DNA of 64,000 bases from positions 124,001 to 188,000 of the forward strand of contig NZ_JAFMZP010000006.1 in NCBI RefSeq assembly GCF_024436435.1. The letters run 5' to 3'. The translations under genes and the position numbers were made by a program. The DNA comes from Desertivirga xinjiangensis (GTDB lineage Bacteria > Bacteroidota > Bacteroidia > Sphingobacteriales > Sphingobacteriaceae). This document shows, one piece after another, positions 31,014 to 52,762 of the stretch; within the stretch, counting starts at the first letter, position 1, and every line of letters starts with the position of its first letter. A model generated the notes under the pieces. It was not told where the DNA came from. It was given only the letters and a program-made list of their open reading frames with translations, and ran no database searches.

Positions 31014-32201
31014 CTATTTCAAAGCCACAAGATTTGCAGGCTCGTGTTCGAGCGTCTTCCAAACCTGATAAAGAGCTCTGGGTATATGAAAACATCCTTT
31101 CCACTTACCACCTTTTAATGGAAGCAGTACTTCCCCCTTGCGATTAAGGTAACCGAACCACTCTCCATATTCGGCATCACGAAAATGCTTCCAGGTATAT
31201 TCATGTAATTTCTCAAACCAAATTTTACACCTTTCATTTCCACTCACATGGTAAGCCTTTGCCATACATACCAAAGCCTCCACATGAACCCACCATAATT
31301 TTTGATCCCACTCAAGCTGCTGAGGCGGATAACCTTTAATATCCTTAAAATACAGTATACCGCCAAAATCCTTATCCCAACCGTATTCAATTGCATTCAA
31401 GGCAATTTCAATCGTTTTATCGATCAATGGTTGGCTTTTAATCCGGATACCCAGATCCATAATGAACCACATAGCCTCAATAACGTGCCCGGGATTCACT
31501 AAACGACCTTCAAAGCAATCAGCGAAAGTACCGTCCTGATACACATTTTCCAGGATCAAACCACTTTCCGGCTGATAAAATACCTCCATCACCTCATGGA
31601 TCACATCCTCTATGAGTGTATTTACCAACTTAGGATCAAGGATATGCTCCAACTCCAGCGAAAGATTGCTCAGTATCATTGGCAAAGAGAAATTTTTCAG
31701 ATCCCTGGTTCCCGGGTAGATCTTGTTGTATTTGCCCTTCGTATTATTGCGGCGGTTTATGATGTTCTCAAAGGTGTTTTTGGCGATGTCTGCATATTCG
31801 TCTTTTGAATTCGCTTTATATAAAGCCGCAAACCCCATCGAAGCGAAACAGTCGGAAAAAATATTGTACGGCTGTATTAATGGTTTTCCATGCTGATCCA
31901 GAGAGAAATACCAATTTCCCTCTGCGTCACGGCCGTACTTTTTCAAAAAATCCGCCCCGTGCTCTGCCATTTCCAGCCATTCTTGCCTGGCCTCCACATT
32001 GTTATACAGCATGGAAAACATCCACACCTGACGCCCCTGTAACCAAATAAACTTATCCTTATCGAATACTTTCCCATGTTGATCGAGACAGGTAAAATAC
32101 CCTCCTCCAACATTATCCTTTGAATGTTTCATCCAAAAGGGAATGATATTTCCAAGTAATTCTTCTTTGTATAGTTCGCTGTATTTCTTCATCTTATCCA
32201 T
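31014..32201 (-). CDS. N-acylglucosamine 2-epimerase (AGE)-family protein
   Basis: About 395 residues, (alpha/alpha)6 barrel, cytoplasmic. Family landmarks: FIWLQGRQVWMFSMLYN near residue 60, NPGHVIEAMW and KGCFHIPRALYQVW, the latter two carrying the histidines conserved in AGE/renin-binding-protein epimerases. It starts at 32201 overlapping the stop of the DUF4434 gene, or at the Met at 32192. Family members interconvert GlcNAc and ManNAc, mannose and glucose, or cellobiose; the hexosaminidase-containing neighbourhood favours an N-acetylhexosamine. Last gene of the operon, followed by a terminator. Confidence 0.88.
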   Translation of the reverse strand: MDKMKKYSELYKEELLGNIIPFWMKHSKDNVGGGYFTCLDQHGKVFDKDKFIWLQGRQVWMFSMLYNNVEARQEWLEMAEHGADFLKKYGRDAEGNWYFSLDQHGKPLIQPYNIFSDCFASMGFAALYKANSKDEYADIAKNTFENIINRRNNTKGKYNKIYPGTRDLKNFSLPMILSNLSLELEHILDPKLVNTLIEDVIHEVMEVFYQPESGLILENVYQDGTFADCFEGRLVNPGHVIEAMWFIMDLGIRIKSQPLIDKTIEIALNAIEYGWDKDFGGILYFKDIKGYPPQQLEWDQKLWWVHVEALVCMAKAYHVSGNERCKIWFEKLHEYTWKHFRDAEYGEWFGYLNRKGEVLLPLKGGKWKGCFHIPRALYQVWKTLEHEPANLVALK

Positions 32202-33144
32202 TTTCCAAATGTTCAAGGTATTCGAGATATTCTTTGTATCTGTTATATAAATGCCCGGCCTGCAGATATGCCGATTGCGGACTCATAAAATGTGAAAATT
32301 CAAATGTGATGGCTTTTTCGTAACCGGCCTTTCGCGCAGCTTCCAGCTTTAAGCGAAGTTTTTCAAATTTGATAGGCAGGAATTTTATAGGCATATCACG
32401 GTCGAAACTTTCAGCATTCGTCCAGCACTGCAAGCCAAATTTATCGGCCATTCCCTTGTTTACCGCAAAAAAGTCGCCTAGCTCGTGATAGTCAATATGA
32501 CCGTCCTGAAAAGCTACAGCATCTACTGCACCCTGTATTCCATCGAATATTTCGCTCCACTCTTTTTCATGTTCCGACAAGGAAACCGCATCCTCCTTGG
32601 TAAGCTCACCAGAAGCCGCCATAACCGCCTTTTTACCATCTATCCATGGGGAAATGAACGTCGGCAAGCCATTACTTACTTCCTTGCATTGCATTCCCAG
32701 GGTACGGAATGCCTCTGTCGCCCCTTTCGTACGGCGGCTTATTTCCATACTCAGGTACCAGCCTCCAAAGCTTTTATAGTGACCGTATCGCTGCCAGACC
32801 TCATCGATGACGAAACGATTAGAATCTATCTCTGAGGATAAATTTCCTGTATCCCAATAATGACCGCTGTCATACAAGCCGAAGTAGAACTTCATATCAT
32901 ATTTCTCCGCAAGCTGCAGGTACATATCTACCAGGTCGACCGGCGGCTGGTAACAACCAAATTCTTTTTGCAGGTATGCAGAGGGATAGGTAATAAACCT
33001 CCGGTAGCCGCTTCTGATCAGGATCACCGTATCTATTCCTACAGCCTTCATATAAGCAAAATCCCTGTCCCACTCAGCCATTCCCCAATTCTGGTGGGGG
33101 ATATCGTGGGATATTTCGTCCAGGAATGTTCCTGTAATCTTCAT
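32194..33144 (-). CDS. DUF4434-type TIM-barrel protein
   Basis: 316 residues, no signal peptide. Begins KITGTFLDEISHDIPHQNW and continues with WDRDFAYMKAVGIDTVILIRSGY, KYDMKFYFGLYDSGHYW and GGWYLSMEI, a pattern I recognise as DUF4434, a putative glycoside-hydrolase-like barrel. Acidic residues at strand ends (for example in YLSMEIS and FEFSHFMSP) could be catalytic, but this is inferred. It follows the SGNH gene by one base and overlaps the epimerase start, so it belongs to the operon. Its cytoplasmic location suggests action on imported small sugars. Confidence 0.75.
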   Translation of the reverse strand: MKITGTFLDEISHDIPHQNWGMAEWDRDFAYMKAVGIDTVILIRSGYRRFITYPSAYLQKEFGCYQPPVDLVDMYLQLAEKYDMKFYFGLYDSGHYWDTGNLSSEIDSNRFVIDEVWQRYGHYKSFGGWYLSMEISRRTKGATEAFRTLGMQCKEVSNGLPTFISPWIDGKKAVMAASGELTKEDAVSLSEHEKEWSEIFDGIQGAVDAVAFQDGHIDYHELGDFFAVNKGMADKFGLQCWTNAESFDRDMPIKFLPIKFEKLRLKLEAARKAGYEKAITFEFSHFMSPQSAYLQAGHLYNRYKEYLEYLEHLENG

Positions 33145-33145
33145 T

Positions 33146-33817
33146 TTATAAATATTTTTTGTTTCTCAAATAGTCCACCCACAACACATAAGCAGCAGGT
33201 TTGATATGAATACCATCCATTGTCAATTCAGCTCTCAACTTTCCCTGACTGTCGCTAAATACTTCGTGCAGATTGATATAAGTTAAACGGTACTCAGCAG
33301 CCAGTTTTTGGATTTCCTTGTTAAGTTGGGTAACGAGATGCCCTTTATTCTTAAGATATGCTGCTGTGAGAATATTCTCATTCATCGGCAGCACGCTCTG
33401 CACATATAAGTTGGTTTTAGGCGAACCCTTTTTTATGTGTTCAATAATTTTCCGGTAGTTGGAAATGATCACTTCAATAGGAAGATTTCTCCCTAAATCG
33501 TTGATACCAATAAGGAGGAATATTTTTTTAGGTTGACTCTCGACAATTGGAGCAAGCCTGGCCCTTACACCGAAGGTGTTATCTCCTCCAATCCCACGAT
33601 TCATGATGACTTTACCAGGCAGCAGTTCATGCCACATACCTCTTTCCGTGATGCTGTTGCCCAGGAACACTATTGATCTTTGAGGCAAAGGCAAGCTTTT
33701 AAAGAGTTCCATCCTGCCCTGGTAATATGTATTATTATAATTGCTATCTATTTTAGCGCTTTGTGCTTTTACCGATACACAAGCAAAAAACAGAAGAGGA
33801 ATAAGTAGTTTGTTCAT
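33146..33817 (-). CDS. Secreted SGNH/GDSL-family hydrolase (esterase) 1
   Basis: 223 residues with signal peptide (to VSVKAQ). SGNH blocks are all present: GNSITERG (block I, nucleophilic Ser), NRGIGGDN (block II, Gly), IGINDLG (block III, Asn) and DGIHI (block V, Asp/His). Such enzymes remove acyl groups, often O-acetyl, from sugars. It has a tandem paralogue immediately upstream (9-base gap) with the same blocks. It probably deacetylates glycans in the periplasm before glycosidase action. Confidence 0.9.
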   Translation of the reverse strand: MNKLLIPLLFFACVSVKAQSAKIDSNYNNTYYQGRMELFKSLPLPQRSIVFLGNSITERGMWHELLPGKVIMNRGIGGDNTFGVRARLAPIVESQPKKIFLLIGINDLGRNLPIEVIISNYRKIIEHIKKGSPKTNLYVQSVLPMNENILTAAYLKNKGHLVTQLNKEIQKLAAEYRLTYINLHEVFSDSQGKLRAELTMDGIHIKPAAYVLWVDYLRNKKYL

Positions 33818-33826
33818 TAGCTTCTT

Positions 33827-34618
33827 CTATAAATAATTATTCGTTTTTAGATATTGCGCCCATAAAATATAAGCCACTGGCTGTAAGTGAATTCCGTCCG
33901 TAGTCAGATTGATTTTCATCTGAGCACTATTATTCAGATCAGCGAACACATCCGTGTGAAGATCTATAAAAGGCAGCCCGTACCTAAGAGCCAGCGATCT
34001 TAACTGGGTGTTCAGTTCTCGTATCTTTTCATTCGTCAGCTTAGAATACGAAGATGACAGGATGGTTTCGGCAACAGGCAGCACACTCTGAAAGTATAAC
34101 CTTGTTTTAGGCGAATCCTTTTGGATCTTCCTGGCTATCCGTTCGTAGTTGTTTACGATAACAGCCGGAGGTGTCCCCCGCTTCAGGTCATTTACGCCAA
34201 TCATCAAAAAAATCTTTTTTGGCTTGGATGCCAATATCTCATCCAGCCTGTAAAACACACCGAAAGAATTGTCGCCGCTAATTCCCCTGTTCAGTACATT
34301 TTTTCGATGAATAAGCTCCTGCCACTCTCCTGCCTCTGTAATGCTGTTTCCCAGGAAAACAATTTCATTTTTTCGATCGGGAATTTGTTTGAAAAACGAC
34401 AGCCGCTGTTTATAATAACCGTTTGCATAACTGCTATCAACGGAGGCTGCCTGCTGGCAAACCGCTGAATGCGAAGACACCATACACAGTATGATTAACA
34501 GCACGCTTAATAGGCTTACCCCTTTCGCCGGGTGGAAGCATCTTATTTGAAAAAACAAGACTGCTCCCTTCGACGATAACAACAAACCTATTGAACAACC
34601 ATTCATTGCAGAGATCAT
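33827..34618 (-). CDS. Secreted SGNH/GDSL-family hydrolase (esterase) 2
   Basis: 263 residues. Blocks GNSITEAGEW, NRGISGDN, IGVNDLKRG and DGIHL match its neighbour, indicating tandem duplication and divergence. The N-terminus is unusually long: the hydrophobic signal-like segment (VSLLSVLLIILCMVSS) only starts near residue 34, so the true start may be internal, but the ATG at 34618 overlaps the symporter stop (ATGA), which supports coupling. Function as for the paralogue: carbohydrate deacylation, substrate unknown. Confidence 0.87.
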   Translation of the reverse strand: MISAMNGCSIGLLLSSKGAVLFFQIRCFHPAKGVSLLSVLLIILCMVSSHSAVCQQAASVDSSYANGYYKQRLSFFKQIPDRKNEIVFLGNSITEAGEWQELIHRKNVLNRGISGDNSFGVFYRLDEILASKPKKIFLMIGVNDLKRGTPPAVIVNNYERIARKIQKDSPKTRLYFQSVLPVAETILSSSYSKLTNEKIRELNTQLRSLALRYGLPFIDLHTDVFADLNNSAQMKINLTTDGIHLQPVAYILWAQYLKTNNYL

Positions 34619-36447
34619 TTGTCAGCTTCCTTTAAATGATCCCACCAGAATTTTTTCAACCAGATACTGGTGATGATCAGCACGCCACACCAAACCACCA
34701 TCTGGGTATTTTCACGTATCATAAAATAGATCGGAATAACCACCTGAGCCATCTGCCAGACAATACCAGCGGCTATATTAGCCATGTCACGGTTGAAATC
34801 TTTATTAGGGACGAAAGATGGATCTTCGGCCATCACCTCTCTCTTGATTGGCCCCCAGAATCCCCATGGACGGGTTTTACGATAAAAATCTTTCACTGCC
34901 TCGCGGTTAGGAAGAGGCTCCATATAAGTTCCGATAATACAGCCGATCGCCGAGATAACAAGGATCACTGGAAAAACATAGATGTCCACGATATCCGGAA
35001 AAACAAATAATTTGACAGTAGAAGCAACCAGACCGAACAACATTCCCCAGAAGTAGCCGAGACCGGAAAAGCGCCACCACACCCATTTTAAAAGGTTGGC
35101 AGCCACATACCCCCCATACAAAGCGGAAGTGAGCCAAAGCGTAAGTTTCGTTAAAGATGAAGCATTAAATCCAAAAATGATACCCACTACAACCAACAAT
35201 ACAGAAGAGAGAATGCTGAGTCTTATATATCTCTCATTTGAAGCGTTCGGATTGATATACTTCTTATAAATATCGTTGACTATATAGGCTGGTGCCGCAT
35301 TTATGAAAGCTGAAAAGGTACCCATAAATGCCGAGAGGAAACCCGCCAGGATAAGTCCTTTTAAACCGCTGGGTACAAATTGGTTGATAGATAAAGGAAG
35401 CACCTTTTCAAAATCGATATTGCTGCCCATCTTTCCCATTTCCGGCCCAAGATATACCAGTCCCAGAACAGCAAAGGATGCGATCATAAGATACCTGGGA
35501 ATATACATTACAAAGATGGTACTGATACTCATCTTTGCAGCTTCGGATGGAGTACGGGCTGATAAGATACGCTGCATATCGTAACTTGGAACAGGTCCTG
35601 CAATAGAGGCGAAGATCCCCTTGAAGAGCATCATCATAAACAGCAATCCGAAGAGCCCAAAGCCATCAGCTTCAATCTTTCCGTTCACATTTGGAAGTGC
35701 AGTCTTACTCCAGTCGAGGTCAAGGTTCCAGCCGAAGAACAGATCCCCCCATCCTGCCGGTACTGCCGCCTGGATCTGCTCAGCAGTTACAGACGTGTAA
35801 GCAATATATCCGATGGCAAAACAGGAAGCAGTCATAATCACAAATTGCAGCACTTCTGTAGCCACAACGCTATACATCCCTCCTTTAACCGTATAAATAG
35901 TAGTCAGTAAGCAGATCAGCAGGGCATAACTTCTTTCAGACGTCAGGTGATATGAGCCTATATTCATTGAAAGATCCCATGGCAGGATCGCTGTACAATA
36001 TTTCCCGATCCCCTCAAAAAAATATGCGATAAAACCAATGACACTGATCACAGCAAAAGTTACAATAATGATATGGGAGAGCTTCGCGCCCTTGCCATCT
36101 CCAAAGCGGAAAGTTATCCATTGCGCACCCGTCATTACGCCCGAACGTCGCATCCAAATCGCCAGGTAAACGAAAATGAACACCTGGTTCCATACAGGCC
36201 AGAGCCATGGAATCCAGGCACTTTTCAGGCCATAAATAAAAAGGATACTTACCGTCCACATGGTTCCCGAAGTATCAAACATACCTGAGGCGTTACTTAA
36301 GCCTAGGTAATACCATTTCATGGTATTGCCACCGAGGAAGTACGAGTTAAGATCCTTGGAAGCTTTCCTGGAGATATAAAATCCCAGCAAAAGAATTCCA
36401 AAAATGTAAGCAAGAATAATTGTGATATCGAGTATACTTAAGCTCAT
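34615..36447 (-). CDS. Sodium:solute symporter (SSS/SLC5 family), long form
   Basis: 610 residues with about 14 hydrophobic segments, starting LDITIILAYIFGILLLGFYISRK. Contains the SSS features YTVKGGMYSVVATEVLQF and MSISTIFVMYIPRYLM. Longer than the 521-residue symporter at 10.2 kb, with an extra C-terminal cytoplasmic segment and helices. It would import the monosaccharide released in the periplasm. Overlaps the SGNH-2 gene by 4 bases. The leader shows ACACACCAT shortly before the start, also seen before the upstream oxidoreductase. Confidence 0.92.
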   Translation of the reverse strand: MSLSILDITIILAYIFGILLLGFYISRKASKDLNSYFLGGNTMKWYYLGLSNASGMFDTSGTMWTVSILFIYGLKSAWIPWLWPVWNQVFIFVYLAIWMRRSGVMTGAQWITFRFGDGKGAKLSHIIIVTFAVISVIGFIAYFFEGIGKYCTAILPWDLSMNIGSYHLTSERSYALLICLLTTIYTVKGGMYSVVATEVLQFVIMTASCFAIGYIAYTSVTAEQIQAAVPAGWGDLFFGWNLDLDWSKTALPNVNGKIEADGFGLFGLLFMMMLFKGIFASIAGPVPSYDMQRILSARTPSEAAKMSISTIFVMYIPRYLMIASFAVLGLVYLGPEMGKMGSNIDFEKVLPLSINQFVPSGLKGLILAGFLSAFMGTFSAFINAAPAYIVNDIYKKYINPNASNERYIRLSILSSVLLVVVGIIFGFNASSLTKLTLWLTSALYGGYVAANLLKWVWWRFSGLGYFWGMLFGLVASTVKLFVFPDIVDIYVFPVILVISAIGCIIGTYMEPLPNREAVKDFYRKTRPWGFWGPIKREVMAEDPSFVPNKDFNRDMANIAAGIVWQMAQVVIPIYFMIRENTQMVVWCGVLIITSIWLKKFWWDHLKEADK

Positions 36448-36566
36448 CTATTTAATGGTGTGTGTTGTGCTGACTAGTTAGGTTCGCCAGAAGATATTTC
36501 TGCGCGTGAAAATTCCCTCAATACTTCCTAACTAACCGATCTTTTCATATTTATAGTTTTACAGAT
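36448..36566. promoter_or_regulatory. Intercistronic gap with long-loop inverted repeat
   Basis: TAGTTAGG (36475-36482) and CCTAACTA (36527-36534) are perfect 8-bp arms separated by 44 bases, lying between the oxidoreductase stop and the symporter start. It may be an mRNA structure or a regulatory site. Confidence 0.4.
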
Positions 36567-38393
36567 CTACTTACTAATAAGACTTCCTGTAAAATCGATT
36601 TCCTGTTTAAAGGGGTTCAGGTATTTATCAATTAGCACCGCAGCATTCCTCCTGTTAAGCTTCCCCGTCAAAAAGCCTTTTTCTTCCTGCAGAACCCGGG
36701 CCTCTGTTATGCTCTTATCTATCAGTAAAAAGGTTTCTGTCAAAAACTTTAATGTAAGAGGTTCTCCTGATGCCTGCACTGTATTCAATTGCGGATAATA
36801 CGTTTTTAGACCACTTACAAATTCATATTCACTTATTTCCCTTTCAGGATAAAACCATGTTTGATTAGCCCATTTAAATGGAAGACCAGTTCCTTTCAAG
36901 ATTCCTGTAGAACCAATCCTTTGGATAGCCTGAAAATCCGTATCTGCAGGTTTGATATCAATAAATGGCATCAGGTAAGCTTTTGCATCCAGCAATGCCT
37001 GCTGCACCTCCCTAATGTTCACCTGAGCAGGTTGAATGTTTCTTTTTATTGCAATAGCTGCCAGAGTTCCTGCTGCCTGACCTATGGTGATCACCACAGG
37101 TTGTAAGCGGGAAGCACCATTTACAATATTGCTAACACTGATACTTTTTTCAGCTACTATCAAACCCTCCTGACTTGCCGGAACCAATGCTCCTAAAGGA
37201 ATATTATACGACGGCACTTTAATTTTTACAAAATCTATTTGCGGAGCAGAAGGATTTTTCAAATGGTGATGATCAATAGTATAATCTCCTACAGCTATAC
37301 CGGTACGATATAAAGCCTCCTTCTGACTGTACGGCATTGAAACATGATTCAGGGTTAAAGTAACCTTCCCCTTCATCCGGCGGCTTTCGCGGTGATAAGG
37401 TATCATCGGAAGTTTATCCGCCGTAGGAAACTCATCATCAGCCAGGCCCAAATTCTTGTAACCAAGTTCTGTTTGAAGATAGTAGACAAATCTAAGTGTG
37501 TGTAACTTTGCTTCTTCTAACACCTCTTTCCGTTCAGCGGGAGTCTTACTAATAATGTTCAAGTAGATATCATTGCCAAATTTTGGCCAGTTTATCATAT
37601 ACTTGTTATTTGGCAGTCGCCCATACTGCATCATCTTATAGCAGTTATTATTGGCATTATCAAAAGCCGCCGGATCAGAAACGTCGCAGCTTCCTGCAAA
37701 TTCAGCCGCTCTATAGCCTGCGGGTTCGGGAATAGTCTTGTCCACGCCTTTACCATAATCTTTCAGGATAGCTACATAAGTCATGTCCTGGATGATATCA
37801 TTGGCCTTTTCAGGCGCATACTCCTCTCCTGTTTCGAAGCGGCTATCCATTCCAACTCTGTACTCCACTCCTATGGAAGCCATCAGATCGCCCAATTCCG
37901 TGGCATCCAATAACAGCTTGGATTGCACCAGCTTTTTCTTACCGTTTGAGACCAGTGTAACATTCCACTTGCCATCTTTCCTTTTCACCTCCTTCCACGT
38001 TGTTTTGTACCAAACGGAAAGATCCTTTTCTCTCGCTAACTCTTTCAAAATCCGGTTACCCACAGAAGGTTCAAACAGGGTATTGCTCACCCATCCGGTT
38101 TCAACGGCCGCCGGTCCGCCATAGTAATTATACAATTTCTCACGAAACTCTCCCCATAGGCCAGAGGGCATGTTATGATTTCCATCAATTGCAGATACGC
38201 CAGCTGCTGTCAGCATCCCTCCTAACCAGTCCGTCTCCTCTGCAATTATTGTTTTTACCCCCATCCTGGCCGCCTGAATTCCGGCCGTAGTACCGCTGGC
38301 TCCTCCACCAATGATTAACAGGTCGGTCTTAATTACCTGTGCCGATAACTGGACTGAGAAAAAAATAAATAAGCCGCAAAACAATCTGATCAT
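36567..38393 (-). CDS. Secreted FAD-dependent oxidoreductase (FAD_oxidored type)
   Basis: 608 residues with a signal peptide (to LSAQ). The dinucleotide-binding motif follows at once: DLLIIGGGASGTTAGIQAARMG, then EETDWLGGML, typical of the PF12831 family found in polysaccharide loci. C-terminal part contains GASRLQPVVITIGQAAGTLAAIA, the FAD-binding C-motif. Periplasmic or surface location with a bound FAD implies export as an apo- or folded protein by Sec, which is unusual for flavoproteins. The substrate is unknown; oxidation of a sugar or of a glycan terminus is inferred from context. First gene of the operon ending at the 30.95 kb terminator; a hairpin sits in its leader. Confidence 0.85.
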   Translation of the reverse strand: MIRLFCGLFIFFSVQLSAQVIKTDLLIIGGGASGTTAGIQAARMGVKTIIAEETDWLGGMLTAAGVSAIDGNHNMPSGLWGEFREKLYNYYGGPAAVETGWVSNTLFEPSVGNRILKELAREKDLSVWYKTTWKEVKRKDGKWNVTLVSNGKKKLVQSKLLLDATELGDLMASIGVEYRVGMDSRFETGEEYAPEKANDIIQDMTYVAILKDYGKGVDKTIPEPAGYRAAEFAGSCDVSDPAAFDNANNNCYKMMQYGRLPNNKYMINWPKFGNDIYLNIISKTPAERKEVLEEAKLHTLRFVYYLQTELGYKNLGLADDEFPTADKLPMIPYHRESRRMKGKVTLTLNHVSMPYSQKEALYRTGIAVGDYTIDHHHLKNPSAPQIDFVKIKVPSYNIPLGALVPASQEGLIVAEKSISVSNIVNGASRLQPVVITIGQAAGTLAAIAIKRNIQPAQVNIREVQQALLDAKAYLMPFIDIKPADTDFQAIQRIGSTGILKGTGLPFKWANQTWFYPEREISEYEFVSGLKTYYPQLNTVQASGEPLTLKFLTETFLLIDKSITEARVLQEEKGFLTGKLNRRNAAVLIDKYLNPFKQEIDFTGSLISK

Positions 38394-38408
38394 AAAACTG
38401 ATGGTGTG

Positions 38409-38431
38409 TAGGTCCGAATTTCTCGGACCTA
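38409..38431. promoter_or_regulatory. Perfect hairpin in the leader of the oxidoreductase gene
   Basis: TAGGTCCGA, 5-base loop, TCGGACCTA: a perfect 9-bp stem, 16 bases upstream of the start codon and 55 bases after the DUF5017 stop. No T-run follows on the minus strand, so it is more likely an mRNA processing or stability element, or an operator, than a terminator. Confidence 0.5.
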
Positions 38432-38485
38432 AATAACGATATTTATCTCAATTGATCAATATCTTTTTTAATTTTTTTAAAAAGT

Positions 38486-39421: not shown

Positions 39422-41227
39422 TTACCAGCCGCGGTTTGGTATAATATCCCGGTTTGAATTCAATTCAGCTGCGGGGATCGCAAACAGGGTGTCCTTTTCT
39501 GTAACATTTTGGCCAGACCTTGCTGCATATGTCCATGCAGGCAATGCTGTGGTCGCAATTTCATTCGCAATTGATTTCATTGTTAAATAAAATTCGCCCC
39601 AGCGGATCAGATCAAATCTTCGCAAGCCCTCATATCCTAACTCAAGACCCCGTTCCTTTCTAACTGCTCTTCTGAAATCCTCTTTTGTGGCTATATCAGC
39701 AGCCGTGAGGTCGGCGTCGTTTGTGTTTTTGTCCGTCATAACGGCCGTAGCGGTGGCTGCTACACCTGTAGCGGACAAACCTCCACTAAATGATACCGAA
39801 GGTGCAGAAGTATAGCCGCTACCCATTTCACTCATATATACCGCGGTCACCTTACCTCCGGCAACCACTGCGGTGCCTATAGCTCCTGATCCGCCCCCGC
39901 CGGTGAATGTCACAGTCGGAACTGAGACATAACCACTACCACCATCGACAATTTTCACATCCCGTACCAGCTCCTGGCCGAGGTTCTTTCCATAAGCACG
40001 GCGTCTTACTTCATTAACTGCATCAATGGCTGTTTGAGGCGGAACAAGAGTACTCATTTCATTCTCAGCCTCTGCCAGCATAAGCAGCACGTCAGAATAA
40101 CGAAGTATTGGAAAATTGATTTGAGTTGTTCCATTAAATCTTGGCAAAGGCTCAAACTCCCTGCGCCATTTTGCATCATAACGATTATATATTTGAGCAG
40201 GAGTATATGCGTTTTTAGCCCCTGTAGTGCCATAGGAAAAAGGACTTATCGTCCAGTCTCTGCGCAGATCTTTGGAGTCAAACAATTTATAGTATTTTTC
40301 TGTGGTGTGTTTAGCACCATAACTATATCCAATTGTTGCATTGGCACCGATTCCGTTTATCGATCCCAAAGACCCCTCTTCATCCTGTGTTCCATTCCTG
40401 AGACCGAACTCCACTTCCCAGATAACTTCTTTAGTGTCATACTTATTTGACGACATATTAATAAACACTTGCCTGTAATCCGGATTAAGAGAATGCCCAG
40501 CCGTTTTTACCATTTCCGCCCATTTCTTAACCTCAGCATATCTCGACACATCCCTTAATGGAGCCCCTGCCATTTTCAAATTCACTCTTGCCAAGATTCC
40601 CCAAACCACGGATTTCGTTACACGGCTTCCATAAGAATAATTAGCTATTGGATATACCATCTCTGCAGCCTTTTCCATATCGCGAACTATCTGTTCATAG
40701 GTAGTTTTGTAAGGAGTATTCGGGAAATTCACTTCCGATGTTGATGCTGTCGCAGTTAAACGCAGCGGAACATTTCCCCAGTTCGACACGAGAAGAAAAT
40801 AATAATAGGCGCGAAGAAACAAAGCTTCTCCCTCGGCAGCCTTTTTCTTATTTGCATCCATATTCGCATTTCCAATATTCTCGAGCAGCATATTGGCCCG
40901 GTTGATTCCATTGTATAGAGCAGTCCAGGTGTCTGTCAGCTTAGTATCCGAAGGGTTATAGTTATATAATGCAATATCCTGGGTCCAGGTAGATAGGGCA
41001 ACAAAACTGTCATCTGCCACATCCATCTCGAAGTACAAGTTCCTGCCGTAAGTGGCCGACTTACCAAGGACATCATATACACCGGAAAGAGCTGCATTTA
41101 CATCCGCTTCATTCTTAAAGAAATTCTTAGGTGACAAGGAATCTGTTGGCACAACATCGAGAAACTTGTTACACGATGTGGATACTACGAGAAATGCAAT
41201 TAGTATAGTGTTAAAAATACGTTTCAT
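39422..41227 (-). CDS. SusD/RagB-family lipoprotein with inserted glycine-rich repeat
   Basis: 601 residues; signal peptide with Cys19 in STSC, and SusD helices (WTALYNGINRANMLLENI, GEALFLRAYYYFLLV, ILRYSDVLLMLAEAENE). Residues about 424-497 interrupt the fold just after EVRRRAYG with two copies of a motif of the form GSGYxSxPxVxFxGG followed by Ala/Val-rich strands. The normal C-terminal SusD sequence (DFRRAVRKERGLELGYEGLRRFDLIRWG) resumes afterwards. This makes the protein longer than usual. Partner of the SusC at 41239-44430; PUL 2. Confidence 0.93.
   Translation of the reverse strand: MKRIFNTILIAFLVVSTSCNKFLDVVPTDSLSPKNFFKNEADVNAALSGVYDVLGKSATYGRNLYFEMDVADDSFVALSTWTQDIALYNYNPSDTKLTDTWTALYNGINRANMLLENIGNANMDANKKKAAEGEALFLRAYYYFLLVSNWGNVPLRLTATASTSEVNFPNTPYKTTYEQIVRDMEKAAEMVYPIANYSYGSRVTKSVVWGILARVNLKMAGAPLRDVSRYAEVKKWAEMVKTAGHSLNPDYRQVFINMSSNKYDTKEVIWEVEFGLRNGTQDEEGSLGSINGIGANATIGYSYGAKHTTEKYYKLFDSKDLRRDWTISPFSYGTTGAKNAYTPAQIYNRYDAKWRREFEPLPRFNGTTQINFPILRYSDVLLMLAEAENEMSTLVPPQTAIDAVNEVRRRAYGKNLGQELVRDVKIVDGGSGYVSVPTVTFTGGGGSGAIGTAVVAGGKVTAVYMSEMGSGYTSAPSVSFSGGLSATGVAATATAVMTDKNTNDADLTAADIATKEDFRRAVRKERGLELGYEGLRRFDLIRWGEFYLTMKSIANEIATTALPAWTYAARSGQNVTEKDTLFAIPAAELNSNRDIIPNRGW
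39737..39958 (-). repeat. In-frame two-unit repeat inserted in SusD
   Basis: Encodes residues about 424-497 of the SusD: VDGGSGYVSVPTVTFTGG and GSGYTSAPSVSFSGG units about 40 residues apart. The same repeat style occurs in phage-tail and adhesin-like proteins, from general recall. Confidence 0.75.
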
Positions 41228-44200: not shown

Positions 44201-44430
44201 TCAAATGATTCTACCGGAATTTTAAACTTCCCGCCAGCATCAGTGCTAATACCATTCGTTCCTCCCTTCACTTTAACAGTTACGCCTATTAAGGGGCTTC
44301 CATCCTGATCTTTGACAATACCCGAAACAGAGTTACTCTGTCCCCTAACTTCTGCATACTGACAAAAAATAAGTATCATAGTCATAATGACACTTGCTAA
44401 CCTTCGTCTTTGAGTAATTAATTGCTGCAT
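41239..44430 (-). CDS. SusC/RagA-family TonB-linked outer-membrane protein
   Basis: 1,063 residues. Signal peptide (to AEVRGQ), carboxypeptidase-regulatory-like domain (about 33-110, VSGIVKDQDGSPLIGV), KLNEVVVIGYGTV pre-plug segment, plug with NITIRGNNSI and PLFVIDGFPF, LKDASATAIYGARGANGV, then barrel ending LNTSF. Imports glycans with the SusD 11 bases downstream. Divergent from the ROK regulator, with a 501-base gap between them. Confidence 0.95.
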   Translation of the reverse strand: MQQLITQRRRLASVIMTMILIFCQYAEVRGQSNSVSGIVKDQDGSPLIGVTVKVKGGTNGISTDAGGKFKIPVESFDETLLFSYLGFENKEVSIAGKRTLNVVLTVSSSKLNEVVVIGYGTVLRKDITGAIGSVDIADLKGAPVKSFDEALAGRVAGVQVTSAEGQPGSTINITIRGNNSITQTNYPLFVIDGFPFEDANNGAVNPLNTINPNDIESIDVLKDASATAIYGARGANGVIMVTTKRGKAGKSLITYNGYLGSQENNKRLAVLSPYEFVNLQNEIDPVKTKELYFKDGRTLEDYRNVKGINWEDQVTRKALMTDHYLSLAGGSDKTKYSASLSHTNQNGIIMNSGFARTQGRLSLDQQVSDRLKVGLNANYAYIKTYGSPTSTGNFSNEINLMFNVWAFRPLAVSPEVNLLDLANDPEVEQASNFTFNPVLTSKNELREHFSNNLNANGFAEYSFSKELKLKVLAGINRGNREFELFNGSMSRSGIAGNYLVNGSKTIYTSSGWQNANTLTYSKRLNARHYFDVMGGFTLEGGKSSAFGATSVLLPSESLGISGLDEGTPLAITSLTGEWSAASFIGRANYKLSDRYLFTASMRADGSSRFIGNNKWGYFPSAAFGWQINNETFMKNLTYVSNAKLRLSWGVTGNNRFSDFAAYPALFSINTDVSYPINNSPGYMFNNADSKGVVYTSLGNKDLKWEVTGQTNLGLDLGFFKDRLTLGVDLYRKNTRDLLLNATLSPSTGYNRGMKNIGKVRNEGLEISASVTPLKSKNFNWTSNFNIAFNRNEILELAENQTYLPSVQSWGDDWKNITGYVARIGEPIAQFYGLVYDGVYKYEDFVQVGNTYTLKGDVTANGGSGSASSVKPGDAKYRDMNGDLIINESDKVVIGDPNPVHVGGLSNNLRFKNFDLGVFFQWSYGNDIINANRILFESAYKYGYNQYATYVNRWSPENQDSDIPGAGSIRGSSLKSYSTRIIEDGSFLRLKTVSLGYTLPANLLKRVKINTFRVFVSAQNLYTWTNYSGYDPEVSVRNSALTPGFDYSAYPRARTITFGLNTSF

Positions 44431-44496
44431 AGCATACGATTAAGATTAATAATTTAAGAAAACCACCCATCAGGCTTTAAACATCCAGATATAAGA

Positions 44497-44504: not shown

Positions 44505-44931
44505 AATAAAAAAACTACCTTTTTAAAAAAAATTAAAAAGAAAAACTTAATATCTTAATAATATTTTCAACATTTTCACCAGTAAATAGCAATATAGACC
44601 TCGATTCCTAAAAAAAACGTCTATTTTTTTGAAAAACGAGCAAAACTTGCCACGCCAGAAACGCACTTTTATGGAGACACCATAGTCCGACTAGCTAAAT
44701 AAATACCAATAAATCCCCCAATGGCGATTATTATAATCTCAGATCTTAGTCGTACTTGATAATTTTGAAATGGTCTATAGTTTGTACGGCGCAATATAAA
44801 ATCATTTTTAGTTAATGACAAGCAACTTTTATATTTTTTTTAATAAGTATTAATATTAGATCTGCCGCTGTTAATTATTTAGAGGATAATTCTTACTATT
44901 GTAATGCTATATAATCAGAACTTATCTTGCA

Positions 44932-46143: not shown

Positions 46144-46151
46144 GAGGAAAT

Positions 46152-48044
46152 TCAGTTATTCGACTTAATCCTCTTATTTAGCTCTGCTAGTGGCAGATTA
46201 ATAATCCTTCCCATTTGTTTCCGACCTTTATAGGAAACTACTCTTATATGATGCGCGCCTTTGGGTATTTCCAGCGGGACACCGCGGTATTCAGGATAAA
46301 ACCTATCCGGATCAGTATCATCGAAGCTATAAAAAACCCTTAAACCACCGATTTCATTTGAAATATCCACTTTTAATGAGTCCCCTGCTTTTGCAGCCCG
46401 GATTATTGGCTCATAAAACGCCTTCGAATAATTCACATTCGCCGAATCTAACCTTGGAAGATGTTCTTCTAATCGCGCGATGAAACCATCCCAGCCCCGT
46501 ACAGACTTAGGAGACCAAAAAACTTCCGATAACGCTATAGCTCTTGGGAAAGTCATGTACTGTAGTTTTCTTTCATTGGCTACCTGTTCAGTCCATAGAC
46601 AGCCCTGTCCTCCAAGCACATTCTCGTGGTTAACACCGAAGGGACTCAAGTCCCAGTTGTAAGCGTTTGTTAATCTTGAAACTGAGAAAAGCCCATTTTC
46701 CAAAACGACATCATTCTGGTAAAAATCAAGGTAGGTATTTGCTGCCGGAGCCATCACCACTTTGTGTCCCTTCACCGAAGCTACTTTTCCCCCTTTCATA
46801 TCCTTCCAGCTAATAAGCGCAAAACTTGTATCCAGATCTCCATCCAAATTCTCATACCAACCCATCACTTTTTTCCCTTTGCTCTGAACGATTTTTGCAA
46901 CCCTGTTCAGAAAGTACCTTTGAAGTCCTTCTTCATTTTTTAATCCTTCTTCTTTAATCCTTTTCTGACAAACGGCACATTTTTTCCAATACGTTCTGGT
47001 AACCTCATCCCCGCCAATATGAATGTATTCAGACGGAAAAAGCGATGCAACTTCCTCAAAAAGCTTATCCAGAAACTGGTAGGTCGAATCATTTCCAACA
47101 CATAACACATTGGTCCTGCTTATATTCCATGGGTCGCCTGCCAACACTTGCTGCTGTGTCTTAGTACAGGAGAGATTAGGATAGGAAGCTATTAAAGCCA
47201 AGCTATGTCCCGGGACATCAATTTCAGGCACCACCGTTACAAACCGATCTGCAGCATATGAAATAATCTCTTTTACATCATCGAGGGAATAAAACCCACC
47301 ATCTGTAGCTGCTTCGCCAGGCTCAGGCTCTTTGAAGCCATTCCAATATCCCGTTCGGGGAACATGCCAGGCTCCAACTTTAGTAAGCAAAGGCAAGCCC
47401 TTCAATTCCACCCTCCATCCCTGGTTGTCCGTCAGATGAAAATGAAAAGTATTAAGCTTGTACTTCGCTATTTGATTAATATAGGACTTAATTACTTCCT
47501 TTGAAAAGAAATGGCGACTAACATCCAGCATTAAGCCCCTCCATGAAAATGCCGGGTAGTCTGTTATATTTAAACACGGCACCTTCCAACCGGTACCAGC
47601 AGAGAACCTACTACTCTCTGCCGCTGCAGGTAATAATTGCATCAATGATTCAAAAGCATAAAACCAGCCCTTCGGACTATTGGCACTGATCAATATCTCA
47701 CTGCGGGATACCTTCAAACCATACCCCTCCTCTCCCAGTTCCTTTACATGCCTTTCATTCAGCACAAACACCACCGAAGACTTCTTATTTCGTTCAACAA
47801 CTGGTAACTTTAAACCTGTTGAAACCCGTAGGCGTAAGGCAAACTGCTCGACTAAGGCCTGATGGCTGCTATATTTGGCAGCTAGTACAAACCTGGTTGC
47901 CGGTTTAAACTCGAACTCCCTTTCGAGAACCTTCATACTAACCGGAACAGGTATGAGGGCCACTTGTCTTTGCGCAAAGGTTTGCCCCACAAGAACGAGC
48001 GTCATCTGCACAAGCAGACTTGTCGACAATATGAACTTTTTCAA
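46152..48044 (-). CDS. Glycoside hydrolase family 20 beta-N-acetylhexosaminidase
   Basis: 630 residues, signal peptide (to QTFAQ). N-terminal GH20b domain (about 28-160), catalytic barrel with WRGLMLDVSRHF, FHFHLTDNQGW, and the catalytic pair Asp346-Glu347 in HIGGDEVTRTYW, used in substrate-assisted cleavage of terminal beta-GlcNAc or GalNAc. C-terminal beta-sandwich (about 540-630) with FDDTDP. Stands as a clear functional anchor for PUL 2 as an N-acetylhexosamine system. Confidence 0.96.
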   Translation of the reverse strand: MKKFILSTSLLVQMTLVLVGQTFAQRQVALIPVPVSMKVLEREFEFKPATRFVLAAKYSSHQALVEQFALRLRVSTGLKLPVVERNKKSSVVFVLNERHVKELGEEGYGLKVSRSEILISANSPKGWFYAFESLMQLLPAAAESSRFSAGTGWKVPCLNITDYPAFSWRGLMLDVSRHFFSKEVIKSYINQIAKYKLNTFHFHLTDNQGWRVELKGLPLLTKVGAWHVPRTGYWNGFKEPEPGEAATDGGFYSLDDVKEIISYAADRFVTVVPEIDVPGHSLALIASYPNLSCTKTQQQVLAGDPWNISRTNVLCVGNDSTYQFLDKLFEEVASLFPSEYIHIGGDEVTRTYWKKCAVCQKRIKEEGLKNEEGLQRYFLNRVAKIVQSKGKKVMGWYENLDGDLDTSFALISWKDMKGGKVASVKGHKVVMAPAANTYLDFYQNDVVLENGLFSVSRLTNAYNWDLSPFGVNHENVLGGQGCLWTEQVANERKLQYMTFPRAIALSEVFWSPKSVRGWDGFIARLEEHLPRLDSANVNYSKAFYEPIIRAAKAGDSLKVDISNEIGGLRVFYSFDDTDPDRFYPEYRGVPLEIPKGAHHIRVVSYKGRKQMGRIINLPLAELNKRIKSNN

Positions 48045-48072
48045 AACGAAAGAAATGTTCTTGATCTATGAA

Positions 48073-49248
48073 CTATTTCATATCTACAGGAATAAAAATC
48101 AATGGAGTCGGCAAACATGACGCTCCGGGAGGAGAGTAAGTTATGTTAAGCGTTTGCTCTTCACCATTAGCCGCCGGCGCAAACACCTGCACTAATACAG
48201 CTTCTGGCGCTCCTTTAGTAGTAAGCTTATCTGAAGGTAATTTTATTATACCTTCATCAAACTTTCCTTTGCTTACCACCATAGTGGCAGCCATGCCATT
48301 ACACCACTTATTATCAGAAGAACGGGAATTCCAGGTAACCAATGCCAGTCCTTTACCGTCAGTACTTTTCCATTTCAAATTTATTGAATACATTACTCCG
48401 TAGTTGCCGGCAAGTTTCGCTTGCTGTCCTCTACTGCTCTCTTTTCCCAATACCCATGGATCTATTTTACCATCAGCAAGCATTAAATGAGATGTACCGT
48501 TTTTGGTATCAAGCACTCCTTCAGTATTAACTTCATAGTTACTCACACCGAACAAACCTCTACCTGCACCACTTTGTCCTTTGGGCGGCAAAATATTCTT
48601 CACTTGTTTTAACGCATCAGGACCGCTTATTGAAGGGGCAGTTTGTATGATACTGATTTCAGCAGGTTGATCAATCACAAATTCATAAAACCCATGAACC
48701 AGCTCATCATACTTCACTATGTTCTTTTCAAGCTTTTCATCTATTGCAATTGCCTCTCCTGGCTTTACCGTCCTGATCTTATCATCCCCTTTTGAGGCAA
48801 AGTAATCTGCTAATCCTTGTTTACCTATCTGGAAATAGTTAGCACTCGGCTTTTGAGAAGAATACTTCAACATCCGGATATTCATTTTTGATGTACCTAG
48901 ATTTTTGATAACAGCCGTAATTTTGCGATCAATTTTTGCCGGTTCAACCACACCGTTAACATTATAAACATATAACCTGACCGCACCTGGTACTACCTTT
49001 TCCTGCAAGGCTATCCCTTCGGGAACGCGGATATATTCGGGATCGTCAGAGATTATATACTGAGGCCCGGGCAATACAACTTTCTGGTAATTAATCAAGG
49101 GTAGATTTTCTGTGAGAAACCCATCCAGCTTAACTATCGTACCTTGCTTTGCTAACAGAATCTGTTGATTCTGTTCTTTAGAGATTGTTTGTGCGTTGAT
49201 AGTTAATCCCGAAGAAAGCAGAAGAAAAAGCAAATTTCTTTTTTTCAT
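48073..49248 (-). CDS. Unrecognised secreted protein in PUL 2
   Basis: About 391 residues from the Met at 49248, which gives a clean signal peptide (KKRNLLFLLLSSGLTINAQ); an ATG at 49272 adds eight residues. The mature protein is beta-rich without known motifs: GAVRLYVYNVNGVVEPAKI (about 90), a middle segment YFASKGDDKIRTVKPGEAIAI, and a C-terminal part with NLKWKSTDGKGLALVTWNSRSSDNKWC and a late Cys pair. No family recognised. It lies 28 bases upstream of GH20 and is probably co-transcribed; a glycan-binding or anchoring role is only a guess. Confidence 0.8.
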   Translation of the reverse strand: MKKRNLLFLLLSSGLTINAQTISKEQNQQILLAKQGTIVKLDGFLTENLPLINYQKVVLPGPQYIISDDPEYIRVPEGIALQEKVVPGAVRLYVYNVNGVVEPAKIDRKITAVIKNLGTSKMNIRMLKYSSQKPSANYFQIGKQGLADYFASKGDDKIRTVKPGEAIAIDEKLEKNIVKYDELVHGFYEFVIDQPAEISIIQTAPSISGPDALKQVKNILPPKGQSGAGRGLFGVSNYEVNTEGVLDTKNGTSHLMLADGKIDPWVLGKESSRGQQAKLAGNYGVMYSINLKWKSTDGKGLALVTWNSRSSDNKWCNGMAATMVVSKGKFDEGIIKLPSDKLTTKGAPEAVLVQVFAPAANGEEQTLNITYSPPGASCLPTPLIFIPVDMK

Positions 49249-49372
49249 TAAAGAGGTTACAGTTTGAATCATCTATTGTAATATATAAGTGTATGTGACT
49301 AAGCAATAACTATGGTAAATATATAATTATTATTAACACTTAGCAACTTTTTAAATATTTTTACAAAGACTA

Positions 49373-50505
49373 CTAATCAGCACTTGTCCCTGCTTTTATG
49401 GCGTTCCATAAGCTTACTTTCATTCTGTTGTAAGGGGGACTATAAGCATGCACCACATCAAAGAGCATAACCCCGTCAGACTTAGAAAGGACTAGCTTAA
49501 TCGCTTTTGATAGATCACCCTGGCTTGCCCAGCTCAGATTTCCCATATCAATACTTCCGTATAAGGGCAATTTATCTTTGGTCACATAATTACCACCATT
49601 TATTGAACCCTCGATACTCCACCAATGGTAAGCAAGGCCAGTAGAGGCCGGGTTGTCATTAATCAACAATTGAGTGAAATAATTTCCTGTCATTAAAAGA
49701 TCTAGCTCTTCAGCCAGGCCAGAATCTTTATAACCAGGAACTGCCCAGTCGAAACGCACACTAGGATCCGAGTAAGGATCATATAATCGGCTGGCCCAAT
49801 TTACACCTACCTGATAATAGGTGGCATACCATGAACCAACATACGACCCAAATTTGATTTCCGGCCTGATACTTTGACGCCGGCCCTGGCGCGCTGAATA
49901 AAATCATGCATCACGTTGGCTCTATATTCAAGCCAGCGTTTGTAATAAACACCCGTAGCAGCAGGAACAATCTGCCCGGAAACGTTCTTCCAGTATGGTA
50001 CAATATCCTTTGGGAAAGTCATATTTCTGGCATTCATGTCATTATATTTCTGCTCCAGAAACCCGACAAAGTCGTTTTTACTATAGTCAGAAAAATCAGC
50101 ATTTATGTCGGCGTAGCGGCAATAGTCAGTGATGATACCATCGACATCATACCTGGCAACTATCTCCTTCATAATGTTAATCGCCCTATCCTGCACTTCA
50201 GGTAAGGCCGGATTCACAAATCCATTTTTTCCTGTGGAAGTTACCGGCACACGCATGCCGTTGACATCGCAAACCACTGATTGATAAAAATCTTTAAAAA
50301 CAGCATCTTCGAACACATTTCCCATTTTACGTACATAGTCTCCTTCGACGAAAACCATAGTAGAAGCAAATACTTTCATCTTGCGCAACCAAGCCTCTCT
50401 TATGATAAATTCAAGATAATCGAAGCCGGGAGGCAGAAACTTTCCTTCCATGGATGTCAACTGAGGAGCATAGTCGCTAATAAACTGACCATTAGATAAA
50501 CTCTT
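49373..50505 (-). pseudogene. GHL10 (family-10-like) glycosidase, 5'-truncated and frameshifted
   Basis: Two frames (49807-50460 and 49373-49759) belong to one gene. Translation in the neighbouring frame across 49865-49760 reads RPEIKFGSYVGSWYATYYQV then NWASRLYDPYSDPSVRFDW, which joins the two without a stop; a single missing base near 49865 explains the break. Upstream, the frame continues as KSLSNGQFISDYAPQLTSME only to a TAA at 50506-50508, so no signal peptide or first barrel strand is encoded. Recognisable parts are MKVFASTMVFVEGD, DGIITDYCRYADIN and the C-terminal barrel half. GHL10/DUF187 enzymes are secreted glycosidase-like barrels. Confidence 0.8.
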
Positions 50506-50513
50506 TTATTGGT

Positions 50514-51251
50514 TTACTGTATAAACTTTTTGCGAACAGCAACAGAGGGACTTCTAAGGGATAGTATATAAATACCACTCTGCAGATTAACAGGAATACT
50601 AAATCCATTGTCACCCTTTTGGAGATTGAGAGACAAAGACCCCAACTCCCGTCCGGACACATCTAAAACATGTATCGTGGCTGCAGAATTAACAGGAGTA
50701 TATACAGAGCCTTTTACCAATCCCGTCCCCCATGCCGAGAAAACAGTTAGTTCAGTAGAGTTAAGTCCTGTTTCAATGACAACAACAGCAGACAAGGACT
50801 CTTTTCCATTAAAATCCACCTGTCTCAACCTATAATAATTTGTTCCCGGCAGAGGGTTTTGATCAATGAAGTTATAACTACTGGAAACAGAAGAATTCCC
50901 TTTTCCTAAAACGAATGATAACAGCGAGAAAGACTTAGCATCTTCAGACCGAAGTACCTCGAATCTGGAATTGTTTATTTCGAATGCTGTTTTCCACGAC
51001 AATATATTTACCTGCCCGGATTTTTTACCGGAAAAAGAAATTAGTTCAACGGGCAGAACCTGTTTGCGGAGGGCCGCAATAAATGCGACATTATTTGCGC
51101 CATAGCCATTCCCCCAGTTCGGACTAGCGTCCGAGCTGGCTGAGGCGTCAGGGCCATTATAATCTAAAAGAACTTTTGAGGGATCTAATATCTGCGATTT
51201 CGCAGCCATGGAGAATACCAAAAAACCCGATAGAATGATAGTCGTTTTCAT
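50514..51251 (-). CDS. T9SS-exported protein with stalk and sorting domain, no evident catalytic domain
   Basis: 245 residues. Signal peptide (to MAAKSQ), about 45 residues of unrecognised sequence (ILDPSKVLLDYNGPDAS...), then a fibronectin-like stalk starting LPVELISFSG and containing SRFEVLRSEDAKSFS and NYYRLRQVDFNGKE, then a type A T9SS C-terminal domain (about 170-245) ending SGIYILSLRSPSVAVRKKFIQ-like. Such domains direct cargo to the outer membrane, but the enzymatic cargo normally in front is missing. It stands next to a decapitated GHL10 gene, so this region may have been rearranged. Confidence 0.78.
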   Translation of the reverse strand: MKTTIILSGFLVFSMAAKSQILDPSKVLLDYNGPDASASSDASPNWGNGYGANNVAFIAALRKQVLPVELISFSGKKSGQVNILSWKTAFEINNSRFEVLRSEDAKSFSLLSFVLGKGNSSVSSSYNFIDQNPLPGTNYYRLRQVDFNGKESLSAVVVIETGLNSTELTVFSAWGTGLVKGSVYTPVNSAATIHVLDVSGRELGSLSLNLQKGDNGFSIPVNLQSGIYILSLRSPSVAVRKKFIQ

Positions 51252-51262
51252 TTGAATTGTGA

Positions 51263-52762
51263 TTAGATCTTTGATTTAACAATAACTGCACTTACCACTG
51301 CTCTTTCTGTACCATCTGATGGCCTGACTGTATTCTGACCATTTATCGTAAAGGACGTAGAACCTCCCCCATCAAGATTCAACGCAGCTACGCAACCCAT
51401 CTCCTTCATTAAATTTGCCAACTCAAGCAGGTCCAGTCCTATGCCCCCATTTGCGTTCCCACCTTCCACAGCAACGATTATCACTTTTCCATCAGCAGTG
51501 TGCCCAATGGCAGACCGGGCCCTCGAAGATGCGTTATCAATAACTATTAGTTCTTGGACATCCGTAATATTCACTGTATTATTTTTAATAAGAACAGGAG
51601 AGCCTCCTATTGCACTTGTAGCATTCCAAATGGTACCTCCGCTGGGAAAAGTTGCAGTGGGAAGGCCTTGCGGCGCAAGCGAAACATCATTAGGACTTGG
51701 CTGAGGATAAGAATAGATTGTTCCGTTGCTGGAACCTACATGATATATCCAACTCACATCAGGCTGATCAGTAGCAGTAATTCCAAAAGCTCCCCGTGTT
51801 GGATAATATGTATTCGCCGTCGATTTGTAGACGCTCCTGCTTAAAGATTTGATATTCACAGCGCTTACAACGGCACGATACTCTACGAGGCTATACGAAG
51901 CATTCGAGCCAAAAAAACCTCCGTTTATACATGCATAAGCTGTTCCGGGTTCATCACTATAAAAGGAAGAAACTTTTTTGGTGGTAGCGGACAGAACTGG
52001 CTTAAACTCAACCAACCTCGGATCGAAGACCAATGCATAGGCATTCATAGACTTTCCATTGTAAGGGGCAGTCGTTTTGTAAACCTGGATACCTGCCGGG
52101 AAACCAGTCATCAATTCTTCTGCCTTTAACCAATAAGAAGGCAGATTAACCAAAGGCACGTCTTTAGAAACCGCAACGGCCGGGTTAGTTGCATACACAA
52201 ACGATCCCGCAGCCGCAGTAGCGCTGGTTACGATTTTAGGGCAAGCAAGGCCAGTAAAAAAAATATTTGTACTGCCATTCCCGGTTGCAAAAGCATGAAC
52301 CGCATTAGTAGTTCCCAAGCCGTCATCTGCTCCCCCCGACCTGATAAGCACCATTTCTGTCGCGGTCAGATTTAGCGAATGCGCAGCGTTCAGGTTAATA
52401 AGCTTGCTATTTTCAAACTTAATATCAACAATAAAATCAGCCGGGTTTTCATCCTCTTTCCATGCTGCATCACTTGATCCATTTTTCCTTAAAACAATAG
52501 CAGTTCCAGACCTCAGATCTTTCCAGAGATCAACATCTGCAAACCTGTACTTTCCCCCATTATCAGTCGTAATACTATTTCCAAAATCTTTTAAAATATA
52601 ATTCCGGATATCCAGGTGATCCCGAATAACTAAAAGCTCGATAGCGTCATAATCGCCAGTTGCGCTGGTGCTATTATAAATCCGATTGACAACAATGTTT
52701 TGAGCGTAACTCAGATAGGCGCCCAAAAAGCAACAAAAGAAAATGAGTAAGCGTTTTTTCAT
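51263..52762 (-). CDS. Phosphodiester glycosidase (NAGPA-family) with N-terminal lamin-tail-like domain
   Basis: 499 residues, signal peptide (to LSYAQ). Residues about 22-190 resemble a lamin-tail-type domain (DYDAIELLVIRDHLDIRNY). The C-terminal half (about 245-497) has the NAGPA landmarks INGGFFGS, GGSPVLIKN, ARSAIGHTADGKVIIVAVEG and NLDGGGSTSFTING. The human relative removes GlcNAc from GlcNAc-1-phospho-mannose diesters; bacterial members cleave sugar-phosphodiester bonds in envelope or exopolysaccharides. First gene of the run toward GH20, with a 457-base gap upstream. With GH20 and AGE it supports a GlcNAc-phosphodiester substrate hypothesis. Confidence 0.9.
   Translation of the reverse strand: MKKRLLIFFCCFLGAYLSYAQNIVVNRIYNSTSATGDYDAIELLVIRDHLDIRNYILKDFGNSITTDNGGKYRFADVDLWKDLRSGTAIVLRKNGSSDAAWKEDENPADFIVDIKFENSKLINLNAAHSLNLTATEMVLIRSGGADDGLGTTNAVHAFATGNGSTNIFFTGLACPKIVTSATAAAGSFVYATNPAVAVSKDVPLVNLPSYWLKAEELMTGFPAGIQVYKTTAPYNGKSMNAYALVFDPRLVEFKPVLSATTKKVSSFYSDEPGTAYACINGGFFGSNASYSLVEYRAVVSAVNIKSLSRSVYKSTANTYYPTRGAFGITATDQPDVSWIYHVGSSNGTIYSYPQPSPNDVSLAPQGLPTATFPSGGTIWNATSAIGGSPVLIKNNTVNITDVQELIVIDNASSRARSAIGHTADGKVIIVAVEGGNANGGIGLDLLELANLMKEMGCVAALNLDGGGSTSFTINGQNTVRPSDGTERAVVSAVIVKSKI

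Follow-up and report, generated by a model that had tools for sequence, protein, structure and literature searches.

We found a polysaccharide utilization locus (PUL) at positions 31014-52762 of a 64,000-nucleotide stretch of the Desertivirga xinjiangensis genome (contig NZ_JAFMZP010000006.1, positions 124,001 to 188,000; the whole stretch is called the window here). The locus is real, coherent and conserved, and it is a modular combination related to a known predicted regulon. We give about an even chance to the reading that one ROK repressor, similar to NagC and NanR, governs a PUL for the import and degradation of an acylated glycan containing N-acetylglucosamine (GlcNAc), with the bacterial envelope as the favoured target. 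The computed parts of this explanation are the gene families, a shared predicted operator and the recurrence of the genes in relatives. A preliminary description of this DNA had proposed a PUL for a GlcNAc-type glycan, acylated and possibly phosphodiester-linked. The GlcNAc part stands, now with conservation and operator ties; the glycan is probably acylated, and its phosphodiester linkage is a guess.

A Pfam profile scan of the PUL proteins recovered, in place, all families of that description: SusC, SusD, DUF5017, ROK, GH20, a NAGPA-type phosphodiester glycosidase, two SGNH esterases, AGE, an SSS symporter, DUF4434 and a flavin adenine dinucleotide (FAD) oxidoreductase. The description had also reported no sialidase, and no sialidase family appeared among the PUL proteins scanned. 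We add four elements to it: the protein HYP48, a broken GHL10 gene, a small sorting-tail protein and the ROK operators. On the minus strand, the genes of SusC-SusD-DUF5017 and of FAD-SSS-SGNH-SGNH-DUF4434-AGE follow one another head to tail, several of them separated or overlapping by just a few bases. The ROK gene is divergent, and the remainder consists of HYP48 and GH20, followed by NAGPA, the small protein and the GHL10 remnant. SusC and SusD are adjacent and are accompanied by degradative enzymes and a regulator, as expected of a PUL. The features are as follows.

31014..32216, minus strand: AGE-type N-acylglucosamine 2-epimerase (PF07221, 7e-75; NCBIfam NF052547; PDB 2gz6/6f04), by eye without a signal peptide
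32194..33144, minus strand: DUF4434 protein (PF14488, 2e-82; PDB 4h41, 1.5e-168), by eye without a signal peptide
33146..33817, minus strand: SGNH/GDSL esterase b (PF13472; GNS and DGIH motifs), signal peptide by eye
33827..34618, minus strand: SGNH/GDSL esterase a (PF13472; GNS and DGIH motifs)
34615..36447, minus strand: SSS-family symporter (PF00474, 7.5e-22), closest structures sodium/glucose cotransporters
36567..38393, minus strand: exported FAD oxidoreductase (PF12831, 9e-99; FAD-core fold), GGGASG directly after the signal peptide
38463..38484, no strand: predicted ROK operator before the FAD-AGE operon, 20.4 bits
38486..39394, minus strand: DUF5017 surface lipoprotein (PF16409, 1e-66), lipobox by eye
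39422..41227, minus strand: SusD-like lipoprotein (PF07980, PF14322)
41239..44430, minus strand: SusC-like TonB-dependent transporter (PF07715, PF13715)
44519..44540, no strand: predicted ROK operator in the SusC promoter region, 22.0 bits
44826..44847, no strand: predicted ROK operator before the ROK gene, 12.8 bits
44932..46143, plus strand: ROK-family regulator with an N-terminal helix-turn-helix (HTH) (PF00480, PF13412), top NCBIfam match NagC, below cut-off
46152..48044, minus strand: GH20 beta-hexosaminidase (PF00728, 8.6e-109; GGDE motif)
48073..49272, minus strand: HYP48, probably secreted, beta-sandwich type, no Pfam family at E 0.001
49347..49368, no strand: predicted ROK operator before HYP48-GH20, 21.2 bits
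49388..50496, minus strand: GHL10 glycosidase remnant (PF02638 on the first piece; tblastn with intact relatives)
50514..51251, minus strand: small protein, signal peptide by eye, weak sorting-tail match (PF18962) below cut-off
51263..52762, minus strand: NAGPA-type phosphodiester glycosidase with an extra N-terminal part (PF09992, 4.5e-27; NAGPA structures 6pku/6pki; NLDGGGS and GGFF motifs)
52798..52819, no strand: weak predicted ROK operator before NAGPA, 10.0 bits

The operator is a 22-bp palindromic motif derived from 57 divergent intergenic regions adjoining ROK genes, the region of the window included. The best site has a median of 18.1 bits in these regions versus 2.6 in shuffles and reaches at least 14 bits in 72% of them versus 0.9% of shuffles; these are training data and by themselves no proof. 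The top three sites of the entire window precede SusC, HYP48 and the FAD operon, followed by those at ROK and NAGPA, and the next best site anywhere in the window scores 7.9 bits. The sites at HYP48, FAD and NAGPA lie outside the training set. Searching the genome (5.5 Mb) for the pattern with one mismatch allowed gave five places. Four are within the locus, and the other one sits on contig 21 in the gap where two genes converge. We also scored 80 named loci, which ranked best among 124 candidates; they were chosen by the flavoprotein, so that its own presence in them is uninformative. Sites below 15 bits were dropped from these counts. Among 35 held-out sites, 33 lie upstream of regulon families (NAGPA 10, HYP48 9, FAD 7, SusC1 3, SusC 2, Est 2), where upstream zones make up 21.7% of the DNA of the 80 loci; many of these loci are related, and the sites are not independent events. 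At least 25 of the 80 loci, mostly from the Algoriphagus group, have no site of 15 bits. Three loci of that group with SusC and the flavoprotein (L042, L067 and L071) carry the same operator before SusC1, and L042 also has a GH18 gene. The locus of a species in the same genus has strong sites at FAD, HYP48, GH20, SusC and ROK. The ROK protein with its HTH adjoins its predicted targets, as in a NanR regulon. These sites support a single regulon under a predicted shared operator, with NAGPA included in relatives and, through a weak site, in the window, which agrees with the grouping made in the preliminary description.

The gene set is modular and widespread, and its conservation in relatives, on which that description had made its reading depend, is supported. 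The locus counts are lower bounds: flanks extended to 10 kb at most, some being shorter, and tblastn matches covering less than 40% of the query, open reading frames below 120 aa, overlapping shorter frames and profile matches above E 1e-15 were left out. Fifty-four loci come from Sphingobacteriales, Chitinophagales, Rufibacter and one Flavobacteriaceae bacterium, and the other 26 from Algoriphagus and its kin. Of the 54 loci, at least 48 have ROK, 43 SusC, 37 DUF5009, 35 SGNH, 35 HYP48, 29 MFS and 26 GHL10, GHL10 being the most frequent of the glycosidases counted; AGE (19 loci), DUF4434 (17), NAGPA (17), DUF5017 (16), Est (16), GH20 (13) and SSS (10) are also found. Since it occurs in 17 of the 54, NAGPA is an optional module. 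The 26 Algoriphagus-group loci have SusC (24), GH18 (18) and ROK-family genes (15) and none of the other counted families. The 18 GH18 proteins carry a chitinase motif (DGLDFDWE or DGLDYDWE), while the GH18 model has no match in the 54 loci. Across the phylum, DUF4434 was matched in 36 of 395 sampled genomes, 24 times over the cut-off. In five loci of other families (L133-L136 and L140), DUF4434 and AGE genes stand beside genes of a GH38 alpha-mannosidase cluster.

AGE exceeds the equivalog cut-off of the NCBIfam GlcNAc 2-epimerase model (NF052547, 674.5 versus 600 bits), and by this score it is the epimerase of GlcNAc and N-acetylmannosamine (ManNAc). The GH20 catalytic domain is present with its D-E pair, and the NAGPA domain scores 95.7 bits versus a Pfam cut-off of 25, with NLDGGGS, GGFF and GGSPVL all there. 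The GHL10 gene has no intact reading frame: intact relatives align with it in two frames, the first ~93-98 codons are missing, and the frame switches between ~49873 and ~49903. As read, it is not a working gene, unless the assembly is in error. This gene, decayed by truncation and frameshift or possibly misassembled, adjoins the open NAGPA gene. The predicted structure of HYP48 is of the beta-sandwich type (mean pLDDT 85.2), with Foldseek TM-scores of at most 0.27 among the 50 matches listed. Its best VIA match (Z 7.0, rmsd 3.9, 114 residues) is at a level that is commonly met according to the tool's own note, and we do not propose HYP48 as a new fold. DUF5009, possibly an HGSNAT-like protein, had no match up to E 0.1 among solved structures. 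Our search of open-licence papers found nothing on DUF4434, nothing combining a phosphodiester glycosidase with polysaccharide utilization and, by title, no paper on a PUL degrading teichoic acid.

The flavoprotein scores 332 bits versus a PF12831 cut-off of 27 and has the GxGxxG motif and an FAD-type fold. A hydrophobic stretch lies just ahead of the FAD motif in 79 of the 81 flavoprotein sequences carrying that motif, the other two being slightly below the threshold, which fits export of the protein. The top VIA matches (Z up to 19.1 over ~175-230 residues) are all FAD cores. With respect to sugar oxidoreductases, the 50 matches listed in each of two fold comparisons are likewise all FAD-core. 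The protein probably acts on GlcNAc glycans, because its gene also lies beside GH18 genes with the chitinase motif. Within the family it is an accessory trait: it was found at E<=1e-100 in 31 of 121 genomes, that of the window included (19 at 60% identity or more), and in one of the two other members of the genus. Absence of MurQ as the reason for having the flavoprotein is ruled out by MurQ matches in all 121 family genomes, 118 of them over the cut-off.

In the favoured reading, SusCD and the DUF5017 lipoprotein would capture the glycan, and the exported NAGPA, GH20 and SGNH esterases would remove GlcNAc-1-phosphate (GlcNAc-1-P), beta-GlcNAc and acyl groups, respectively. The exported flavoprotein may oxidise or reduce a GlcNAc residue. 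SSS would import the sugar, which itself or as a derivative would release ROK, and cytoplasmic AGE would interconvert ManNAc and GlcNAc. The target that we favour is a bacterial envelope glycan, that is, peptidoglycan strands with attached polymers of ManNAc and GlcNAc-1-P. Bacterial walls carry ManNAc, GlcNAc-1-P and O-acetyl features. The envelope is favoured because AGE, NAGPA and the esterases match these wall features and because GHL10, the commonest counted glycosidase in relatives, is a lytic transglycosylase in Cwp19. Several results weigh against this reading. MurQ is found in the genome of the window and does not discriminate, as all 121 family genomes have it; the GHL10 gene of the window is broken; and no peptidoglycan amidase or peptidase was found among the PUL proteins scanned with Pfam. 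The same-genus locus extends to GH43 and GH92 genes, and GH38 occurs in other loci with DUF4434 and AGE; such neighbours point to mannose-containing glycans. In the window NAGPA has a weak operator, near the 95th percentile of shuffles, and a reversed control pattern gave four places in the genome versus five, so that the clustering at promoters alone is informative.

The alternative suggested by these neighbours is a PUL for N-glycans of eukaryotes or for other glycans of mannose and GlcNAc from plants, fungi or animals, with GH20 and NAGPA uncapping GlcNAc, mannosidases working on the core and AGE handling ManNAc. We consider this possible but unlikely. It would account for GH92 and GH43 next to the same-genus locus, for GH92 in locus L047 and for the five loci in which DUF4434 and AGE accompany genes of the GH38 cluster, as a Pfam check of one of the five showed. 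From the BT0433-BT0454 region of Bacteroides thetaiotaomicron, excerpts of PMC5238430 call the SusC protein BT_0439 implicated in host glycan degradation, and excerpts of PMC8225759 give BT_0438 as a GH89 alpha-GlcNAcase. However, no mannosidase was found among the scanned PUL proteins of the window, and the same-genus locus has no ROK operator before GH92 or GH43.

A system for chitin or chito-oligosaccharides is a more doubtful alternative. The flavoprotein shares its locus with chitinase-motif GH18 genes in 18 of the 26 Algoriphagus-group loci, the operator stands at SusC1 in three of these 26 loci (including L042, the one with GH18), and the window has GH20; on the other hand, the GH18 model is unmatched in the 54 other loci, and NAGPA, AGE and the esterases would be needless for chitin. 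What the envelope, mannose and chitin readings have in common is GlcNAc, and the evidence reaches that far.

A more specific form of the envelope reading, which we hold to be improbable, is that NAGPA cuts the GlcNAc-1-P link of anchored Gram-positive wall polymers, that AGE channels ManNAc from the linkage unit, and that the exported flavoprotein performs a redox step, not yet described, on a residue of GlcNAc or N-acetylmuramic acid. If this were true, the BT0433-BT0454 region of the gut bacterium would act similarly in vivo.

Sialic acid, cut to ManNAc and converted by AGE to GlcNAc as in the Bacteroides NanR type, was dropped as the main substrate and is the least probable reading. The AGE equivalog score and the SGNH esterases would suit it, and BNR_2 proteins elsewhere in the genome make a sialidase outside the PUL possible, but Pfam found neither a sialidase nor a lyase among the scanned PUL proteins. 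The genome has four PF00701 proteins; the three that were compared with the NanA models fall below both cut-offs, and the remaining one has the best PF00701 score. The SSS of the window is closer to the sodium/glucose cotransporters than to PDB 5nv9, which we take to be the sialic-acid symporter SiaT. Also on the side of sialic acid, BT0433 is the ROK regulator that Table 2 of PMC3878776 predicts to be NanR, for sialic acid and GlcNAc.

The adjoining PUL (window positions 9212-30610) has pectin-type enzymes: an alpha-D-galacturonidase (22291-25053) exceeds its NCBIfam cut-off, and a match to beta-glucuronidase/beta-L-arabinofuranosidase (12684-16208) stays below its own. An SSS symporter and a protein of the DHDPS family are also present, and the substrate of this PUL is presumably rhamnogalacturonan II. 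The genome has a second NAGPA locus (L155; contig 11, 1120000-1135000), which contains SusD, DUF5017, NAGPA, a protein of the SASA sialate-esterase family and a calcineurin-like phosphoesterase, then SSS, DHDPS, fructose-6-phosphate aldolase, a LacI regulator and ribokinase, and it has no ROK operator of at least 10 bits. A further NAGPA gene (L168; contig 25, 90000-108000) occurs with SusD and with DUF218 and BACON proteins. It lies ~6 kb from a MurQ gene, which we do not use as a link, the housekeeping genes MetH and MTHFR being in between.

Among known systems, the mammalian NAGPA uncovering enzyme has the NAGPA domain in common with the window protein, which has an extra N-terminal part. 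The window ROK shares HTH and ROK domains with the NagC and Mlc repressors, as well as an AT-rich palindromic (here predicted) operator, but it scores below both equivalog cut-offs. Cwp19 has a GHL10 domain like those in 26 of the 54 related loci, while the window copy is a remnant. DigH is presumably also a GHL10 protein, and the DUF4434 match PDB 4h41 is presumably BT_0435 of the BT0433-BT0454 region. Excerpts of PMC6016235 assign the GHL10 of Cwp19 as a peptidoglycan lytic transglycosylase, those of PMC5765458 state that precise substrates were then undetermined, and PMC12288456, in which the term GHL10 was not found, describes DigH as a denuded-glycan hydrolase.

The preliminary description knew of no described system with exactly this set; that nothing similar is described is not supported as stated, the BT0433-BT0454 region being similar. 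Compared by published gene descriptions, that region and the present locus or its relatives have ROK, SusCD, DUF5009, family-10 glycosidases and, presumably, DUF4434 in common. According to a table in PMC10434189, BT0438-40 are an alpha-GlcNAcase, a TonB receptor and a SusD; BT0442 is a DUF4855 protein; and BT0446-49 comprise DUF5009, a pair of family-10 glycosylhydrolases and a phosphoesterase of the calcineurin-like type. The two family-10 proteins are probably GHL10, which in the window is broken, and DUF5009 occurs there and in the relatives but not among the scanned PUL proteins of the window. Parts of the BT0433 region are described in the literature as responding in vivo to unknown substrates. 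Where this region has the GH89 alpha-GlcNAcase, the window instead has NAGPA and GH20.

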